DNA of 64,000 nt from Alphaproteobacteria bacterium (GTDB lineage: Bacteria > Pseudomonadota > Alphaproteobacteria > Rhizobiales > Aestuariivirgaceae), in NCBI GenBank assembly GCA_028868695.1, contig JAGWTZ010000007.1, positions 1 to 64,000 of the forward strand, written 5' to 3'. Shown here piece by piece: positions 37,259 to 62,985 of this stretch. The stretch's first letter is position 1. Each line of letters opens with the position of its first letter. Under the pieces are notes generated by a model that saw only the letters and a list, made by a program, of their open reading frames with translations, did no database searches and was not told the origin of the DNA. The position numbers were made by a program, and so were the translations under genes.

Positions 37259-37350
37259 CCGTCATCCCCGCGAAAGCGGGGACCCAGCTTCATTCACAAC
37301 CTCTGAAACAGCCCAAGTCAGCTGGGCCCCCGCCTTCGCGGGGGTGACGG
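37259..37350. repeat. REP-like inverted pair (family B) without nuclease gene
   Basis: Two copies of the same short palindromic repeat face each other: CCGTCATCCCCGCGAAAGCG... (37259-37290) and its near-complement ending GTGACGG (37320-37350), with three differences over 31 bases. Each copy folds into its own hairpin (CCCCGC-GAAA-GCGGGG and CCCCCGC-GAAG-GCGGGGG), and the differences keep base pairing. This is the same repeat family that brackets the GIY-YIG gene at 62.5 kb. It starts 26 bases after the pntAA stop, inside the pnt operon. Confidence 0.9.
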
Positions 37351-48933: not shown

Positions 48934-49043
48934 GCCCAAAGACCCCTTACCCCACACACCGTTTTTATTTTTGTTAATCATGTCTCTCTTGCCTCGCAGC
49001 GTCAATAGCTTCAACCGAAAAGAGGGGGAGCAAGATCGGGGCC

Positions 49044-49071
49044 AAAAAAAAGCCGCGGGATGCGCGGCTTT
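49044..49071 (-). terminator. Intrinsic terminator for minus-strand DUF1192 transcript
   Basis: Read on the minus strand, AAAGCCGCG pairs with CGCGGCTTT around a 5-base loop and is followed by eight T. It lies 130 bases downstream of the DUF1192 gene and 111 bases before the preferred rcdA start, so it separates the two minus-strand genes. Confidence 0.85.
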
Positions 49072-49200
49072 GAGTTTCTAACAGGGAGGCGTCAAACAGA
49101 GTGGAATCAACCACTCGGAGAAACCCAGAAGCTCTGGGCTGATGGTGAATCTAAACGTTAATTATTACCCAATGCTTAATGGCGGCCCGCGAAATCGCCT

Positions 49201-51696: not shown

Positions 51697-51819
51697 CCCC
51701 TCATCCGGCGCGCCGCTGCGCTTGCGCCACCTTCTCCCCTAAAGGGGAGAAGGGTGAAGTGGCTGATCTGCCCCTCTCCCCTTCAGGGGAGAGGGAGCGC
51801 CGCAGGCGCGGGTGAGGGG
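51697..51819. repeat. Inverted pair of hairpin repeats (family C) joined to the DUF559 gene
   Basis: Two hairpins lie in series: CCTTCTCCCCT-AA-AGGGGAGAAGG (51730-51753) and CCCTCTCCCCT-TC-AGGGGAGAGGG (51772-51795), each with perfect 11-base arms. Their outer flanks are also related in inverted orientation (CCCCTCATCCGGCGC at the left end, complement of CCCCTCACCCGCGCC at the right end), so this is an inverted pair of one longer repeat. The DUF559 frame ends inside it, and its C-terminal tail is repeat-encoded. Confidence 0.88.
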
Positions 51820-52153
51820 ACGTGTTGAGCTTCAACAAGACCGTGTCCAGAACCCCGGCGAGATTTTCGTAGACATCCTGGTTCCAGACGCGGTGGATTT
51901 CATAGCCCCGGGACCTGAGCCACTGGCTGCGCTGCCAGTCATGCTTCAGTTCGTGGGCCTCAGAATGCGTGGCCCCATCCACCTCAATCACCAGCCGCTC
52001 ACTGCGGCAGACAAAATCGGCAATGAATTTACCGATGGGCACCTGTCTTGAAAACTTGAAACCACCCAGCGCCTTGTTGCGCAGGCAGTTCCACAAGATT
52101 TGTTCCGCGGGCGTCATGTCCTGGCGCATGGCGCGCGCCCGGCCAAGTGTCAC
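51701..52153 (-). CDS. DUF559 (VSR-like PD-(D/E)XK fold) endonuclease-domain protein
   Basis: This 150-residue protein shows the DUF559 pattern: RARAMRQDMTPAEQILWNCLRNKALGGFKFSRQVPIGKFIADFVCRSERLVIEVDGATHSE and HDWQRSQWLRSRGYEIHRVWNQDVYENLAGVL, with D/E residues of the nuclease core in FIADFV and VIEVDG. I choose the GTG at 52153 (AAAGGA upstream, protein begins VTLGRARAM) because it falls 15 bases after the stop of the upstream gene and fits the family start; the track ATG at 52207 would overlap that gene. The last 35-40 residues (SPHPRLRRSLSPEGERG...) are encoded by the hairpin repeats and are not part of the domain. Confidence 0.82.
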   Translation of the reverse strand: MTLGRARAMRQDMTPAEQILWNCLRNKALGGFKFSRQVPIGKFIADFVCRSERLVIEVDGATHSEAHELKHDWQRSQWLRSRGYEIHRVWNQDVYENLAGVLDTVLLKLNTSPHPRLRRSLSPEGERGRSATSPFSPLGEKVAQAQRRAG

Positions 52154-52167
52154 GGGGTCCTTTGCAC

Positions 52168-53304
52168 TCAAAACAGCGCCATCTGTTCGCCCTTTTGCGG
52201 GGGGCATTTGAACAGGTCGGTGCGCAGCTTCACGCGGCTGGCGTTGAGGCCGAGGCGCTGGCAGGCCAGCTGGAATCGGCGGCCGATGGTCCAGGCATAG
52301 GGGCCGGTGCCGGCCATGCGGGTGCCGAAGTTCGGGTCATTCTCGCGGCCGCCGCGCACTGATTTCACCAGCGCCATCACCTTGGCGGCGCGGTCGGGGT
52401 ATTCCTTCTCCAGCCAATCCTTGAACACGTCCTTCACCTCCAGCGGCAGGCGCAGCATGGTGTAGCCCGCCTCCTTCACGCCGGCATTGCGCGCCGCCTT
52501 CAGGATGTTGTCGATCTCGCTGTCATTGAGGCCGGGAATGATCGGGCCCATCATCACCACGGTGGGAATTCCGGCCTTGGAGAGGATCTCCAGCGCCGAA
52601 AGCCGCTTCATCGGCGTTGAGGCGCGCGGCTCCATGCGCCGGGCAAGATCGGCATCCAGCGTGGTGAGCGAGATCGCCACCTTCACAAGGCCCTTGGCGG
52701 CCATGTCCTGCAGGATGTCGAGATCGCGCAGCACGGTGGCGGATTTGGTGACGATGCCGAAGGGGTGGCTGAATTCCTGCAGCACTTCCAGCACCGAACG
52801 GGTGATGCGGTAGTCCCGCTCGATCGGCTGGTAGGGATCGGTGTTGGCGCCCAGCGCCAGCGTGGCAGGCTGGTAGGTGGTCGCGGTTAATTCCTCCCGG
52901 AGGAGAGCCGCCGCGTTCGGCTTGATGAAAAGCTTGCTCTCGAAATCGAGGCCGGGGGAAAGGCCCATATAGGCATGGGTCGGCCTGGCATAGCAGTAGA
53001 TGCAGCCATGCTCGCAGCCGCGGTAGGGGTTGATGGAACGGTCAAAGGAAATGTCGGGCGAGTCATTGCGGGTGATGATCACCTTGGGGGTTTCGGTGAA
53101 CACCTCGGTCTTGCGGCGCGGCAGTTCGGCCAGGCTTTCCCAGCCGTCATCGCTGAAGGCGCTGGCGTGCTTGTCAAAGCGCGGCGGCGGGTTGGCCTTG
53201 GCGCCGCGCCCGCGCTCCAGCTGCGGGAGCGAGGTGAGCTTGCCGGCGCCCAGGGCCGCAAGGTCAAGGGCGGAAGAACGGGTGTGATCAAGAAGCGTTG
53301 CCAT
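52168..53304 (-). CDS. PA0069 family radical SAM protein
   Basis: This 378-residue protein carries the radical SAM cluster CEHGCIYCYARP (CxxxCxxC) after INPYRG, which is diagnostic of the PA0069/SplB-like family, followed by LALGANTDPYQPIERDYRITRSVLEVL and VVMMGPIIPGLNDSEIDNIL. The substrate of PA0069-type proteins is unknown. ATG at 53304 (MATLLDHTRSSALDL) is preferred to the track start at 53346. The DUF559 gene starts 15 bases after its stop on the same strand. Confidence 0.9.
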   Translation of the reverse strand: MATLLDHTRSSALDLAALGAGKLTSLPQLERGRGAKANPPPRFDKHASAFSDDGWESLAELPRRKTEVFTETPKVIITRNDSPDISFDRSINPYRGCEHGCIYCYARPTHAYMGLSPGLDFESKLFIKPNAAALLREELTATTYQPATLALGANTDPYQPIERDYRITRSVLEVLQEFSHPFGIVTKSATVLRDLDILQDMAAKGLVKVAISLTTLDADLARRMEPRASTPMKRLSALEILSKAGIPTVVMMGPIIPGLNDSEIDNILKAARNAGVKEAGYTMLRLPLEVKDVFKDWLEKEYPDRAAKVMALVKSVRGGRENDPNFGTRMAGTGPYAWTIGRRFQLACQRLGLNASRVKLRTDLFKCPPQKGEQMALF

Positions 53305-53417
53305 GAATGAGACTATAATCCGGAACATGGAACAAAGCAAGAACAATTTGATCTGGCCACAAAGGGTGAAAAATCAGGCTCTTGCGGCGCGGCGGCGGCT
53401 TCGCCATGGGTGGGGGC

Positions 53418-54287
53418 ATGAGCCCGCGCAACCTTGGTTTGGCGATTCTGGCCCCGCTGTGCTGGGGCCTCACTTTCACTTTGGCCAAGCCGGTGGTGAC
53501 GCATTTCCCGCCGCTGTTCATGATGCTGATGGTCTATGCCGGCATCGGTCTGGTGATGGCGGCCACGCACCGCACCCCTTTCAAGACCGGCTGGCCCAAG
53601 CTGCTGCTGATCTCGGCCTTATCAGTTACCATCCAGGGCGGATTGCTGTTCTATGCAGTGAAGGAGGTTGACGCCACCACCTCAAACCTCGTGCTGCAGG
53701 CGCAGGTGCCGGCAGGTGTAGTCCTCGGCTGGCTGATCGCCGGGGAGCCGCTCAACCCGTCGCGCATCGTGGGCATGCTGGTGGCGGTGCTGGGCGTGGT
53801 CATCGTCATCGGCCTGCCGGAGAAGAAGCCGCCGCTCATCCCGGTGCTCACCATCGTGCTCAGCGGCTTTGTCTGGGCGGCGGGCCAGGTTCTCGCGCGG
53901 GTGCTGTCGCAGGATTCGGGGCTCATGGTGCTCAAGGCCAATGCCTGGTTTGCAACGCCGCAGCTGGTGGTGGCCACGCTGCTTTTGGAGCAGGGGCAAT
54001 GGCAGGCGGTGATGACGGCCACGCCATTCCAATGGCTGCTGTTCGGCTTTGTCGGCGTCTTCGGCTTCTATGTGGCCTACATGACGTGGTTCACCCTGCT
54101 GAAGCGGGTGAGTGTGGACCAGGCCGTGCCCTTCATCCTGCTGATGACGCCGATTGGATTGGTGGGTGCCGTGGTGTTTCTGGGCGAGACCATTACGCCC
54201 GTTCAGCTCATCGGCGGCGCGGTGCTGATGCTGGGCCTCGCCATCGTCAATGGCGTGGGCGTGCCGAGGCGCTTCAAAACAGCCTAA
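53418..54287 (+). CDS. EamA/DMT family transporter
   Basis: This 289-residue protein has ten predicted helices in two EamA repeats (GLAILAPLCWGLTFTLAKPVV at the start; PVLTIVLSGFVWAAGQVLARVLS beginning the second; GETITPVQLIGGAVLMLGLAIV at the end). Start at ATG 53418 (MSPRNLGLAIL). It is divergent from the radical SAM gene and its stop overlaps that of the convergent DUF2267 gene. Substrate unknown. It is only distantly similar by eye to the EamA protein at 32.7-33.6 kb. Confidence 0.88.
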   Translation: MSPRNLGLAILAPLCWGLTFTLAKPVVTHFPPLFMMLMVYAGIGLVMAATHRTPFKTGWPKLLLISALSVTIQGGLLFYAVKEVDATTSNLVLQAQVPAGVVLGWLIAGEPLNPSRIVGMLVAVLGVVIVIGLPEKKPPLIPVLTIVLSGFVWAAGQVLARVLSQDSGLMVLKANAWFATPQLVVATLLLEQGQWQAVMTATPFQWLLFGFVGVFGFYVAYMTWFTLLKRVSVDQAVPFILLMTPIGLVGAVVFLGETITPVQLIGGAVLMLGLAIVNGVGVPRRFKTA

Positions 54288-54706
54288 TCCGCCTTCCAGA
54301 ATTCCACAGCGCCTTGCGGCAAGGTGGCCAGCACCGCATCAAGCTTCATCTCGTCAACATGCTTGCGCAAGCTGCGCGCGACATCGGCAATGGCGGTGTC
54401 GGGCGAGAAGTTGTGATCGCGGCGCAAGGCCTTCACCTCGGCGGTGAGTTCCTCGCGCGAGGCAAAGGGCAGGGGCTTTTCATCAATGGCCCACTCCTTG
54501 ACGAACAAGGCGCGCAGCACAGGCGGCAGCACATCGGCAAAGCGCAAGCCGTCACGCACAGAAAGACGGCGGCGGAAGGTGCGCAGCACCGCCTCGGTGG
54601 TGGTATAGGCCGGGTTGCGCGTGGCGAAATTGCAAGCCTCCATCACCTCGCGCAGAAAGGCATCAAACTCCTCGCCGGGGTGGCGGTATTCATAAGGGAG
54701 GGGCAT
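54284..54706 (-). CDS. DUF2267 domain protein
   Basis: This 140-residue protein matches DUF2267: EFDAFLREVMEACNFATRNPAYTTTEAVLRTFRRRLSVRDGLRFADVLPPVLRALFVKEW. The function is unknown. The track ORF begins upstream at 54781, but those extra residues (LRCFAQQSLEG) come from the palindromic repeat next to it. ATG at 54706 (MPLPYEYRHPGEEFDAF) matches the domain start. The GIY-YIG module now lies directly upstream, between this gene and moaB on the same strand, and could have changed its transcription. Confidence 0.8.
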   Translation of the reverse strand: MPLPYEYRHPGEEFDAFLREVMEACNFATRNPAYTTTEAVLRTFRRRLSVRDGLRFADVLPPVLRALFVKEWAIDEKPLPFASREELTAEVKALRRDHNFSPDTAIADVARSLRKHVDEMKLDAVLATLPQGAVEFWKAD

Positions 54707-54731
54707 GTGGGAAGGATAGCACAAGGCGACG

Positions 54732-54773
54732 CATCCTTCGAGGCTTTGCTGCGCAAAGCACCTCAGGATGAGG
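54732..54773 (+). repeat. Left 42-bp inverted repeat of GIY-YIG module 1 (family A)
   Basis: CATCCTTCGAGGCTTTGCTG... to ...CTCAGGATGAGG. It pairs with 55155-55196 on the other side of the nuclease gene with one mismatch over 42 bases. The repeat is itself a hairpin (CATCCT/AGGATG, GAGG/CCTC, CTTTGC/GCAAAG). Similar sequences are a common interspersed repeat of Rhizobiales genomes from general knowledge. Confidence 0.93.
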
Positions 54774-54842
54774 TGGAGCACAAAACCTCATCACGACAGG
54801 CGCACCATGTACTGCAGGCCCGGAACATGCGAGGCTCTGAAC

Positions 54843-55142
54843 ATGACGGGGGCATGGATTTACATTCTGGAATGCAGTGATGGCAGTTTCTACACCGGCC
54901 TCACGAAGCAGGAGCCAGAAGGGCGGTTGTGGGAGCACAACAACCGCATTTACAAAGATGCCTATACCTCAACACGGCTGCCTGTCAGGCTTGCTTATGC
55001 GGAGTTCCATGATTCCATCGTCAATGCCATAGAAGCCGAGCGCCGCATCAAGGGATGGAGCCGCGCCAAGAAGATCGCAATGATGAATGGAGACTGGAAG
55101 AGACTGGTTGAGCTTGCGAAGCGCAGGGGAGGAAAGACTTGA
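54843..55142 (+). CDS. GIY-YIG nuclease family protein in repeat-bounded module 1
   Basis: This 99-residue single-domain protein has the GIY-YIG layout: WIYILECSDGSFYTGLT (the IYI...YTG pair), Arg28 in EGRLWEHN, and Glu66 in AIEAERRIKGWSRAKKIAMMNGDWKRL with the following NGDW. These correspond to the catalytic Tyr, Arg, Glu and Asn of the fold, so it should be active. ATG at 54843 (MTGAWIYIL) is preferred; the track start lies in the left repeat. It is enclosed by nearly perfect 42-bp inverted repeats and sits against the stop codon of moaB, on the strand opposite to moaB and the DUF2267 gene. Confidence 0.88.
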   Translation: MTGAWIYILECSDGSFYTGLTKQEPEGRLWEHNNRIYKDAYTSTRLPVRLAYAEFHDSIVNAIEAERRIKGWSRAKKIAMMNGDWKRLVELAKRRGGKT

Positions 55143-55154
55143 GTTCAAACCCCG

Positions 55155-55196
55155 CCTCATCCTGAGGCGCTTTGCGCAGCAAAGCCTCGAAGGATG
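55155..55196 (-). repeat. Right 42-bp inverted repeat of GIY-YIG module 1 (family A)
   Basis: Reverse complement of 54732-54773 with one difference (the loop-side A/G). It begins 13 bases after the nuclease stop and ends six bases before the moaB stop codon. Confidence 0.93.
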
Positions 55197-55201
55197 AGCC
55201 G

Positions 55202-55732
55202 CTATTTCCTCCGCAAATGCTCATCCAGCCGCGGCATGATTTCCACGAAGTTGCAGGGCTTATGGCGGTAGTCGAGCTGCTTGGCCAGGATCTCGTCCCA
55301 GCCGTCGCGGCAGGCGCCGGGGGAACCGGGCAGGCAGAAGACATATTTGCTGTTGATCAGGCCGGCGGTGGCGCGGCTTTGCATGGTTGATGTGCCGATC
55401 TTCTGGAAGGAGATCATGTGGAACACCGTGCCGAAGCCCTCAATCTCCTTCTCGAACAGGGGCTGCAGGGCCTCGATCGTCACGTCGCGGCCGGTGAGGC
55501 CGGTGCCGCCGGTGGTGATCAGCGCATCCACGGCCTTGTCGGCCAGAAAGCCATGCGCCGCGGCGCGGATGGCCTCCACCTCATCCTTTACGATGCCACG
55601 GCCGGCAAGGCGGTGCCCTGATGCGGTGATGCGGTCGGCCAGCGTCTGGCCGGATTTGTCGTCGGCCAAGGTGCGCGTGTCCGACACGGTGATCACGGCA
55701 AGGCCCATGGGGATGAAGGCGCGCTCAGTCAT
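55202..55732 (-). CDS. moaB: Molybdenum cofactor biosynthesis protein B MoaB
   Basis: This 176-residue MoaB/Mog-fold protein works in molybdopterin adenylylation or a related step of Moco synthesis. Landmarks are AVITVSDTRTLADDKSGQTLADRI, the MPT-binding ALITTGGTGLTGRDVTIEAL and VFCLPGSPGACRDGWDEIL. It may serve the SoeA-type molybdoenzyme at 6.6 kb. Its ATG overlaps the UDG-like gene stop (ATGA), so the two are coupled. GIY-YIG module 1 lies directly after its stop codon. Confidence 0.93.
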   Translation of the reverse strand: MTERAFIPMGLAVITVSDTRTLADDKSGQTLADRITASGHRLAGRGIVKDEVEAIRAAAHGFLADKAVDALITTGGTGLTGRDVTIEALQPLFEKEIEGFGTVFHMISFQKIGTSTMQSRATAGLINSKYVFCLPGSPGACRDGWDEILAKQLDYRHKPCNFVEIMPRLDEHLRRK

Positions 55733-61671: not shown

Positions 61672-62480
61672 TGCAGCCGGTTGTTGAAGCCGCGCGGGCC
61701 AAGATCAACCTGGCCCTGCATGTGCTGGGCCGCCGCGCCGATGGCTATCACGAGCTCGATTCCATCGTGGCCTTCGCTGATCTCGGCGACAGGCTGACGG
61801 TGGCGCCTGCTTCCGCCAACGCGCTTTTGGTGGAAGGGCCTTTCGCCGCGGATGTTCCGGCAGACGAAGGCAATATCATCTGGAAGGCTTGGGCGCATGT
61901 GCGCGGGTTGCTGGACGTGCCTTTCGTCTCGGTTATCCTCGAGAAGAACCTGCCGGTGGCCTCGGGCATTGGCGGCGGCTCGGCCGATGCGGCAGCACTG
62001 GTCCGGGCCTTGTTGCGGCTGGCAGGCGCACGCTTGAGTGAGGCGCAGGTGGCGGGGCTCGCTGCCATCGGGGCTGATGTGCCGGTGTGTTTCGTCGGCA
62101 AGCCCTGCCGCATGGAAGGCATTGGCGAAAAGATCAGTGTCCTGAGCGAACAGCTGCCGCCGGCGCTGGTGCTGGTGAACCCGCTGGCGCCTTGCGGCAC
62201 GGCGGAGGTGTTCAAGGCCATGGGGCTGAAGCCGGGCGAGGTGCTTGCCACGCGGGCCGATTTGCGCAATGACATGACGGCCGCCGCCGTGCAGGTGCAG
62301 CCGCGCATTGCCGATGTTCTCTCGGCGCTAGAGAAAACCGCGCTGTGGCCGGTGCGCATGTCCGGCTCCGGCGCCAGCTGCTTTGGCATCGCCAACAGCC
62401 TGGAAGAGGCCGAAGCCGTGGCTGCCAAGCTTTCGGCGGCCCATCCCGCCTGGTGGGTAAAGGCCGCGCGGCTGGGTTAG
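61671..62480 (+). CDS. ispE: 4-diphosphocytidyl-2-C-methyl-D-erythritol kinase IspE
   Basis: IspE phosphorylates CDP-ME in the non-mevalonate isoprenoid pathway. The 269-residue GHMP kinase has AARAKINLALHVLGRRADGYHELDSIV at the N-terminus, the ATP-binding PVASGIGGGSADAAALVRALL near residue 95, and MSGSGASCFGIA near residue 225. Its last 48 bases plus the preceding base (62432-62480) occur again, exactly, at 62937-62985 behind the GIY-YIG module. Before that insertion its stop codon overlapped the aroC stop on the other strand. Confidence 0.95.
   Translation: MQPVVEAARAKINLALHVLGRRADGYHELDSIVAFADLGDRLTVAPASANALLVEGPFAADVPADEGNIIWKAWAHVRGLLDVPFVSVILEKNLPVASGIGGGSADAAALVRALLRLAGARLSEAQVAGLAAIGADVPVCFVGKPCRMEGIGEKISVLSEQLPPALVLVNPLAPCGTAEVFKAMGLKPGEVLATRADLRNDMTAAAVQVQPRIADVLSALEKTALWPVRMSGSGASCFGIANSLEEAEAVAAKLSAAHPAWWVKAARLG
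62432..62480 (+). repeat. 49-bp direct repeat, copy 1 (ispE 3' end)
   Basis: Identical over 49 bases to 62937-62985. It contains the last 15 ispE codons and the TAG stop. The two copies bracket a 456-bp insert that carries the GIY-YIG gene, as expected for a target-site duplication. Confidence 0.97.
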
Positions 62481-62503
62481 GCGGCAGTCTGACCACCCAC
62501 AAA

Positions 62504-62537
62504 CTCCGTCACCCCTGCGAAGGCAGGGGCCCAGCTT
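62504..62537 (+). repeat. Left 34-bp inverted repeat of module 2 (family B)
   Basis: CTCCGTCACCCCTGCGAAGG... is the exact reverse complement of 62893-62926. Internally it is a hairpin, CCCCTGC-GAAG-GCAGGGG. It contains the stop codon and last nine codons of the GIY-YIG gene. The same family, with compensating stem changes, is found at 37259-37350. Confidence 0.97.
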
Positions 62538-62892: not shown

Positions 62893-62926
62893 AAGCTGGG
62901 CCCCTGCCTTCGCAGGGGTGACGGAG
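62893..62926 (-). repeat. Right 34-bp inverted repeat of module 2 (family B)
   Basis: Exact reverse complement of 62504-62537, lying upstream of the GIY-YIG start and 10 bases before the second direct-repeat copy. Confidence 0.97.
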
Positions 62927-62936
62927 AATGTGTTGC

Positions 62937-62985
62937 TTCGGCGGCCCATCCCGCCTGGTGGGTAAAGGCCGCGCGGCTGGGTTAG
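62937..62985 (+). repeat. 49-bp direct repeat, copy 2 (at the aroC 3' end)
   Basis: Identical to 62432-62480. The aroC stop codon (TAA, read on the minus strand) lies at 62982-62984 inside this copy. Confidence 0.97.

Follow-up and report, generated by a model that had tools for sequence, protein, structure and literature searches.

Small nuclease genes of two folds lie between facing palindromic repeats and are candidates for spreading them

Introduction

The closest described systems are the REPtrons, in which RAYT (TnpA-REP) genes are flanked by GTAG REPs, and the REPINs, which are their non-autonomous copies (PMC2817692, PMC3116915, PMC3733652). For the CGTC-tagged REPs, a published superfamily that includes dRS3 of Neisseria and RPE of Rickettsia, it was stated in 2013 that they 'apparently lack a dedicated transposase'; CGTC-flanked transposases were not reported there, nor is a GIY-YIG gene mentioned (PMC3733652). 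Few bacterial repeats are as widespread as the CGTC REPs. A link of GIY-YIG or DUF559 genes to REPs was not found in the literature (open-licence papers).

The window (i.e. the whole 64-kb stretch of DNA that was analysed, from a genome referred to as G000) contains three modules that combine a nuclease gene with palindromes: a DUF559 module at 51.7-52.2 kb (M1) and two GIY-YIG modules at 54.7-55.2 kb (M2) and 62.5-62.9 kb (M3). This nuclease-plus-hairpin observation, first made in an initial annotation of the window, is confirmed here as real and general.

Modules in the window

Sequence analysis located the three modules at the positions given in the initial annotation (Table 1), adjoining, as it had said, the stop codons of trcR, moaB and ispE. 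It had also described them as having three folds and three repeat families, of which the three repeat families were found, while the folds are only two (GIY-YIG twice, PD-(D/E)XK-type DUF559 once). The modules come without a transposase; their genes belong to PF01541 or PF04480, and no Y1/RAYT transposase is present in G000.

Table 1. Positions of module genes, repeats and related features in the window
Feature	Position	Strand	Basis
M1 repeat unit A (CCCCTCATCC..GCGCC..CCTTCTCCCC-TAAA-GGGGAGAAGG)	51697..51754	+	sequence
M1 repeat unit B, in opposite orientation to A (CCCCTCTCCCC-TTCA-GGGGAGAGGG..GCGCCGCAGGCGC..GGGTGAGGGG)	51771..51819	-	sequence; arms 88% complementary
M1 nuclease gene, DUF559 (PD-(D/E)XK/Vsr-like)	51701..52207	-	PF04480 E 9.8e-35; PDB relative 3hrl
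M2 left palindromic arm (CATCCTTCGAGGC..GCACCTCAGGATGAG)	54726..54776	+	sequence
M2 GIY-YIG nuclease gene, 99 aa	54843..55142	+	PF01541 E 1.7e-13
M2 right palindromic arm, inverted copy of left arm	55152..55202	-	sequence
M3 left CGTC-tagged REP (CCGTCACCCCTGCGAAGGCAGGGGCCCAGCTT)	62506..62537	+	sequence
M3 GIY-YIG nuclease gene, 115 aa	62509..62856	-	PF01541 E 2.3e-12; AF2 model pLDDT 87
M3 right CGTC-tagged REP, inverted copy of left REP	62893..62924	-	sequence
49-bp ispE 3' end, left of the two direct-repeat copies around M3	62432..62480	+	sequence
49-bp direct repeat, right copy, overlapping the aroC stop	62937..62985	+	sequence
Two M3-family CGTC REPs, head to head and without a gene (REPIN-like), downstream of a gene resembling ATP synthase	37260..37349	.	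sequence

The M1 protein belongs to the DUF559 family, its domain (51827-52141) scoring 119 bits against a Pfam gathering score of 20.6. Its two hairpin units face each other at the 3' end of the gene, whose reading frame passes through both; in M3, the C-terminus of the nuclease is encoded by REP sequence. The M3-type protein is a member of the GIY-YIG superfamily by fold and by the catalytic Y/R/E/N, with 1zg2 (UPF0213) as best PDB match. The arms of M2 are 51 nt each and 92% complementary, those of M3 40 nt each and 95% complementary.

The M3-family arms are CGTC-tagged REPs, having the CGTC/TGTC tag, the 8-9-bp stem, the 4-5-nt loop and the CCA-like tail that define the superfamily, and they share its predominance of head-to-head dimers and its high copy number. 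There are 34 copies in G000 (where repeat counts rest on pattern searches) and 190 in G017, many of them as +/- pairs approximately 60 bp apart, versus 0 for a reversed-pattern control.

Association of nuclease genes with repeats

Inverted palindromic arms are present in ~ 73% (104/142) of the GIY-YIG genes that resemble the M3 gene, the remaining ~ 27% being without detectable paired arms. Within the family, 49/70 matches are armed compared to 3/2756 random positions of the same loci (~ 0.1%), and across phyla 50/80 loci compared to 19/2354; the arrangement of arms and nuclease is conserved in many phyla. For DUF559, where the arms are of the type CTCCC..GGGAG, 24/34 and 19/29 genes (together 43/63) are armed versus 8/1056 in the control. 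The enrichment next to palindromes that the initial annotation had proposed to look for therefore exists for both nuclease types. Among control genes, arms were found at 0/20 uvrC genes and 2/168 small ORFs; the random-position, small-ORF and uvrC controls together reject chance or general REP density as the cause of the arms. For GIY-YIG, the association holds for the M3-like group and does not extend to small GIY-YIG genes in general: outside this group only 2/32 have arms, and in a phylum sample chosen by Pfam score 7/30, which rejects the idea that every small GIY-YIG gene is REP-flanked.

The number of repeat copies rises with the cognate nuclease, as the initial annotation had suggested checking, with rho values of 0.61 and 0.64 over 60 genomes (no phylogenetic correction). 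Partial rank correlations, likewise without phylogenetic correction, give a double dissociation (GIY-CGTC 0.50, DUF-CTCCCC 0.54, cross terms 0.13-0.14); within the genus, the DUF559 correlation taken by itself does not reach significance (rho 0.25, p 0.21). Cognacy of repeat and nuclease shows in a Mantel test (rho 0.31, versus a permutation maximum of 0.16), and it is the nuclease subtype, not the genome, with which the repeat subtype goes in 33/35 within-genome comparisons, or 21/23 when pairs with homologous flanks are removed. Subtype-wise, too, repeat copy number goes with module subtype. There are counterexamples, namely G004, with 50 CTCCCC hairpins and zero DUF559 genes, and G044 and G051, with 9-11 CGTC REPs and zero small GIY-YIG genes, which would be explained if these repeats are relics. 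The claim of one nuclease per repeat family is upheld for the pairs M3-type GIY-YIG/CGTC and DUF559/CTCCC, and is thin for M2, whose palindrome, with only 3 exact copies in G000, is not supported as an abundant repeat family.

The nucleases themselves are under strong purifying selection, as indicated by a dN/dS of 0.06-0.08 between most unit copies, and the catalytic Y, R, E and N of the GIY-YIG proteins are invariant.

Probable mobility of the unit

Arms and gene recur together as a unit of ~ 350-420 bp at unrelated sites, sometimes twice per genome. The M3 unit was found again at other sites, with homology stopping at the REP tag; a Moraniibacteriota MAG carries two unit copies that are 96% alike with different flanks, one Melioribacteraceae contig holds two, and the flanks of the nearest module pairs are mostly non-homologous. 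For DUF559, gene and arms moving as a unit were not seen (no module-limited homology at >=80% identity).

M3 interrupts ispE-aroC, and on either side of it stands the same 49-bp sequence, as a perfect direct repeat (62432-62480 = 62937-62985). In the relative G012 the ispE-aroC junction is uninterrupted, with a single copy of the 49-bp sequence, no insert and no REP. Such a bracketing duplication was sought in 88 armed modules and is clear in 1/88 (M3) only; other high duplication scores (L023, L193) lie inside or beside the repeats themselves. As a question for M3 only, separate from the explanation of the whole system, the direct repeat could have arisen by later slippage or recombination and been kept since the overlapping ispE and aroC both need an intact 3' end. 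The filler of 26 and 13 nt that separates it from the REP tags and the lack of such a duplication at other modules would fit this, whereas its perfection, its position around the module and the single copy in a relative without insert speak against it, and we consider it rather unlikely.

Discussion

In these compact movable units each nuclease type keeps its own hairpin type, so that the nuclease is the foremost candidate for the agent that spreads the hairpins. That the repeats are cleaved, and how insertion proceeds, is inferred. The modules are probably minimal mobile units, in which a small nuclease gene lies between two facing tagged palindromes and the nuclease acts on its own REP. Such a unit would read [C/T]GTC-stem-loop-stem-CCAGCTT, followed by the gene and an inverted copy. 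Recognition of the palindrome by its own nuclease would probably take place on a hairpin or on single strand exposed in replication, and a nick would follow in the CGTC tag or close to it, after which host repair or recombination could copy the REP-bounded segment elsewhere, in most cases to a position behind a gene. Gene-less units would persist as paired REPs (REPINs), moved in trans, and DUF559 with its CTCCC..GGGAG repeats would be a parallel system on an unrelated nuclease fold. Since no covalent intermediate forms when GIY-YIG and PD-(D/E)XK enzymes hydrolyse DNA, joining must depend on host repair, from which the rarity of clean target-site duplications would follow.

Part of the same evidence could also be read as homing-like behaviour, in which the nuclease cuts palindrome-like genomic sites (solo REPs or REPINs) and REP-gene-REP is copied via homologous repair, the REPs being pre-existing and spread otherwise. 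GIY-YIG is a homing-endonuclease fold, most sites are without target duplication, the module amounts to a REPIN enclosing a gene, and both arms of one module are nearly identical. However, REP number tracks the nuclease, which is unexpected for mere targets, the empty site in G012 has no REP and the module flanks are unrelated, so that this reading seems improbable. Equally, the nuclease genes might only be hitchhiking in, or domesticated at, REP-rich insertion-tolerant spots behind genes, with REPs spread by an unrelated host process and the nuclease otherwise employed (in defence, DNA repair or transformation). REPs are indeed generally found behind genes (PMC3733652), and DUF559 domains have distant matches in anti-phage proteins; yet other genes of the same loci lack such arms, arm subtype goes with nuclease subtype at non-homologous sites, and the whole unit appears to move, which makes this quite improbable.

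Spreading of CGTC REPs in trans by RAYT/TnpA-REP or another IS transposase is very improbable. RAYT is the proposed spreader of GTAG REPs (PMC2817692, PMC3733652), but no transposase flanked by CGTC repeats is known from that work (PMC3733652), a Y1_Tnp gene is lacking in G000 and in 49/60 family genomes (including G004 and G017, the REP-richest), and REP number does not differ significantly with or without Y1_Tnp (p 0.20). In G000 itself, having no Y1_Tnp gene, RAYT is rejected as mobiliser.

A cognate nuclease between the same repeats is a concrete, testable answer to the missing-transposase question for CGTC REPs, and suggests a role for many genes labelled just 'GIY-YIG nuclease family protein' or 'DUF559'. 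More broadly, we tentatively propose that two of the commonest bacterial REP families may be mobilised independently by small hydrolytic nucleases with unrelated folds, at least GIY-YIG and PD-(D/E)XK DUF559. The copying would be transposase-free and host-repair-dependent, a mode not described before. If true, REP-like elements arose with three unrelated enzymes, i.e. RAYT, GIY-YIG and DUF559.

Comparison with known systems

The module GIY-YIG proteins share fold and catalytic residues with UPF0213/YhbQ-type and free-standing GIY-YIG proteins, the UvrC N-domain and Slx1, but the uvrC and other small GIY-YIG genes tested here are, unlike the M3-like genes, not REP-flanked (0/20 and 2/32). The Ssn-type ssDNA endonucleases of Neisseria, also GIY-YIG proteins, cleave repeated sequences in single-stranded form at specific sites, and in N. 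gonorrhoeae an M3-like gene sits inside a 16-copy dRS3 cluster. This prior art could lower the novelty of the link between nuclease and REP; to our knowledge, the Ssn family has been described as nucleases, not as a mobile or cognate partner of CGTC REPs in general. The M1 protein clearly belongs to the DUF559/Vsr-like PD-(D/E)XK proteins (PDB 3hrl), whose association with repeats is undescribed in open-licence papers.

Compared to insertion sequences, the modules have inverted repeats and no transposase, and a short target-site duplication is absent in most of them, with one 49-bp case. With regard to homing, there is one empty site (G012), without REP, and the flanks of most nearest pairs are non-homologous. 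The M3-family repeats fit the definition of the CGTC REP superfamily, the partner gene being reported here and not in PMC3733652.

With REPtrons the modules have in common a nuclease gene between tagged inverted palindromes, dispersed gene-less pairs, subtype-specific pairing and a site behind genes. REPtrons have a Y1 HUH tyrosine transposase and the GTAG tag, whereas the modules have GIY-YIG or DUF559 (PF01541/PF04480, with PF01797 absent from G000) and the CGTC/TGTC tag or CTCCC hairpins; the inverted REPs both flank the gene and are dispersed, as in REPtrons, and differ in their tag. We read the modules as a REPtron-like system with non-transposase nucleases.

Nuclease-repeat modules in the window

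Inspection of the sequence and a domain search of the window established that the three nuclease-plus-hairpin modules described in the initial annotation are all real, and that they indeed represent three repeat families, but the claim that each nuclease has a different fold does not hold, since there are only two folds.

Positions of the modules and associated features in the window
Feature	Position (strand)	Description
Gene-less repeat pair	37.26-37.35 kb	M3 repeat family
sRNA BjrC1505	49043-49186 (-)	Alphaproteobacterial sRNA; Rfam match, 64 bits
M1	51.7-52.2 kb	DUF559 gene whose 3' end carries a facing pair of CTCCCC..GGGGAG hairpin units
Stretch over the M1 hairpin pair	51701-51830	Read through by the DUF559 frame
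M2	54.7-55.2 kb	GIY-YIG gene between inverted arms of 51 nt
Direct repeat, first copy	62432-62480	49 bp, perfect; ispE 3' end
C/T-rich stretch	62494-62506	Example of sequence outside a CGTC tag
M3	62.5-62.9 kb	Second, divergent GIY-YIG gene between inverted arms of 40 nt
Direct repeat, second copy	62937-62985	49 bp, perfect; ispE 3' end

Because the DUF559 frame crosses the hairpin pair of M1, the C-terminus of the protein is translated repeat (SPHPRLRRSLSPEGERG), and 23 of the 49 DUF559 genes examined have such an M1-like frame through the hairpins. The repeat family of M2 is thin: the source genome has 3 exact copies of it, and no more than two M2-like relatives carry arms. The arms of M3-type modules consist of [C/T]GTC, a stem of 8-9 bp, a short loop, the complementary stem and CCA/CCCAGCTT, and the GTC tag lies on the outside at either end of most modules; the stems differ widely from module to module, yet both arms of one module match. 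Such arms are CGTC REPs, a superfamily that Di Nocera et al. 2013 (PMC3733652) described as apparently having no transposase of its own. G is scarce and C/T frequent in the 12 nt beyond the CGTC tag (C accounting for 53-60% at -8 to -5), and the two module ends also agree slightly in the nucleotides past the tag, in a weakly palindromic fashion, which might reflect an insertion-target preference.

Association of nucleases with their repeats

As the initial annotation anticipated, both nuclease types lie near palindromes far more often than random positions do. The score used was that of the strongest inverted match when one flank of a nuclease domain is compared with the other. In the window's family, arms with a score of at least 18 occur at 49 of 70 small GIY-YIG hits, versus 3 of the 2756 random positions taken from those loci, all three being DUF559-type repeats. 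Among 80 named genomes from many phyla (including Alpha-, Beta- and Gammaproteobacteria, Sulfurovum, Bacteroidota, Nitrospirota and Patescibacteria), a score of at least 15 was reached at 50/80 GIY-YIG loci versus 19/2354 controls, some of the latter being REPs themselves. The negative controls gave arms at 0/20 uvrC genes (a GIY-YIG domain in a host gene) and 2/168 small ORFs. For GIY-YIG, the effect is confined to M3-like genes, with arms at 104 of 142 loci (three loci come from duplicate genome records); other small GIY-YIG genes do not show it (2/32), and a phylum-wide sample picked by Pfam score gave 7/30, versus 0/299 controls. DUF559 genes have arms in 24/34 cases in the family and 19/29 across the phylum, versus 8/1056 controls.

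Repeat number likewise tracks the cognate nuclease, as had been proposed, with kinship ignored in all of these correlations. The CGTC pattern has 34 matches in the source genome and, read backwards as a control, none in any of 60 genomes; its count rises with that of small GIY-YIG genes, at rho 0.61 across the family and 0.55 across the genus. For CTCCCC hairpins (80 in the source genome) and DUF559 genes, rho is 0.64 across the family, and the genus value of 0.25 is not significant. Partial rank correlations (0.50 for GIY-CGTC, 0.54 for DUF559-CTCCCC, 0.13-0.14 for the cross terms) dissociate the two nuclease-repeat pairs. Loop subtype GGGCTTGACCC reaches at least four copies in only four genus genomes (G031, G048, G049 and G041), three of which contain a module with the identical arm sequence. 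A counterexample is genome G004, with 50 CTCCCC hairpins but no DUF559.

Arms and nuclease are also cognate at the level of sequence. Between different genomes, nuclease similarity predicts arm similarity (87 modules; rho 0.31, versus at most 0.16 in 500 permutations), as it does for DUF559 (rho 0.22, exceeding all 500 permutations). In 33/35 comparisons, which are not fully independent of one another, the arms match those of the module with the nearest nuclease in another genome rather than those of same-genome modules; after removal of pairs with homologous flanks this was 21/23 (counted by hand, three by a small margin).

Recurrence as a unit and possible mechanism

In a blastn search of 37 genus genomes with the M3 region, arms and gene turned up together as a unit at other sites, and there the homology stops at the tags. 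In one Moraniibacteriota MAG, the unit is present twice, in unrelated flanks; the copies share 96% identity across 357 bp, which begins and ends no more than about 8 nt from the tags, and no duplication is present. Two M3-like modules (87-89% identical) on Melioribacteraceae contig BQMY01000086.1, L151 and L170, are possibly a recent local duplication. The nuclease is under selection (dN/dS 0.06-0.08 between most unit copies), none of its catalytic residues (Y, R, E and N) varies, and the AlphaFold model of the M3-type protein has a GIY-YIG fold (pLDDT 87), closest to UPF0213, UvrC-N and Slx1.

What the data establish is the structure of the unit, its recurrence, its cognacy and the selection acting on its nuclease. 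On the inferred mechanism, the nuclease would nick its own palindrome, after which host repair would copy the REP-bounded segment. RAYT transposases, proposed to spread GTAG REPs, are ruled out as mobiliser in the source genome because a gene search found none there. The main rival is a homing-like variant, in which REPs are pre-existing targets of the nuclease. The copy-number results make this variant less likely, as does the ispE-aroC junction of a relative (G012), which aligns without gaps to the joined flanks of M3, with no insert, and is REP-free. This junction has a single copy of the 49-bp direct repeat that brackets M3, a repeat absent from the initial description. Filler of 26 and 13 nt separates it from the element tags, and both ispE and aroC are left intact; 49 bp is unusually long for a target duplication. 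A widely staggered break may have left this duplication, which would have persisted because each of the overlapping genes ispE and aroC needs an intact end; alternatively, the duplication may be a secondary event.

An M3-like GIY-YIG gene (54% identical) is found in Neisseria gonorrhoeae (NZ_CP119140, 1880781-1884083, a chromosome-sized record labelled plasmid), inside a cluster of 16 dRS3-type CGTC repeats. A Neisseria GIY-YIG family reportedly cuts single-stranded repeats site-specifically; if true, this lead would back the cleavage step, and would lessen the novelty of the nuclease-REP link.
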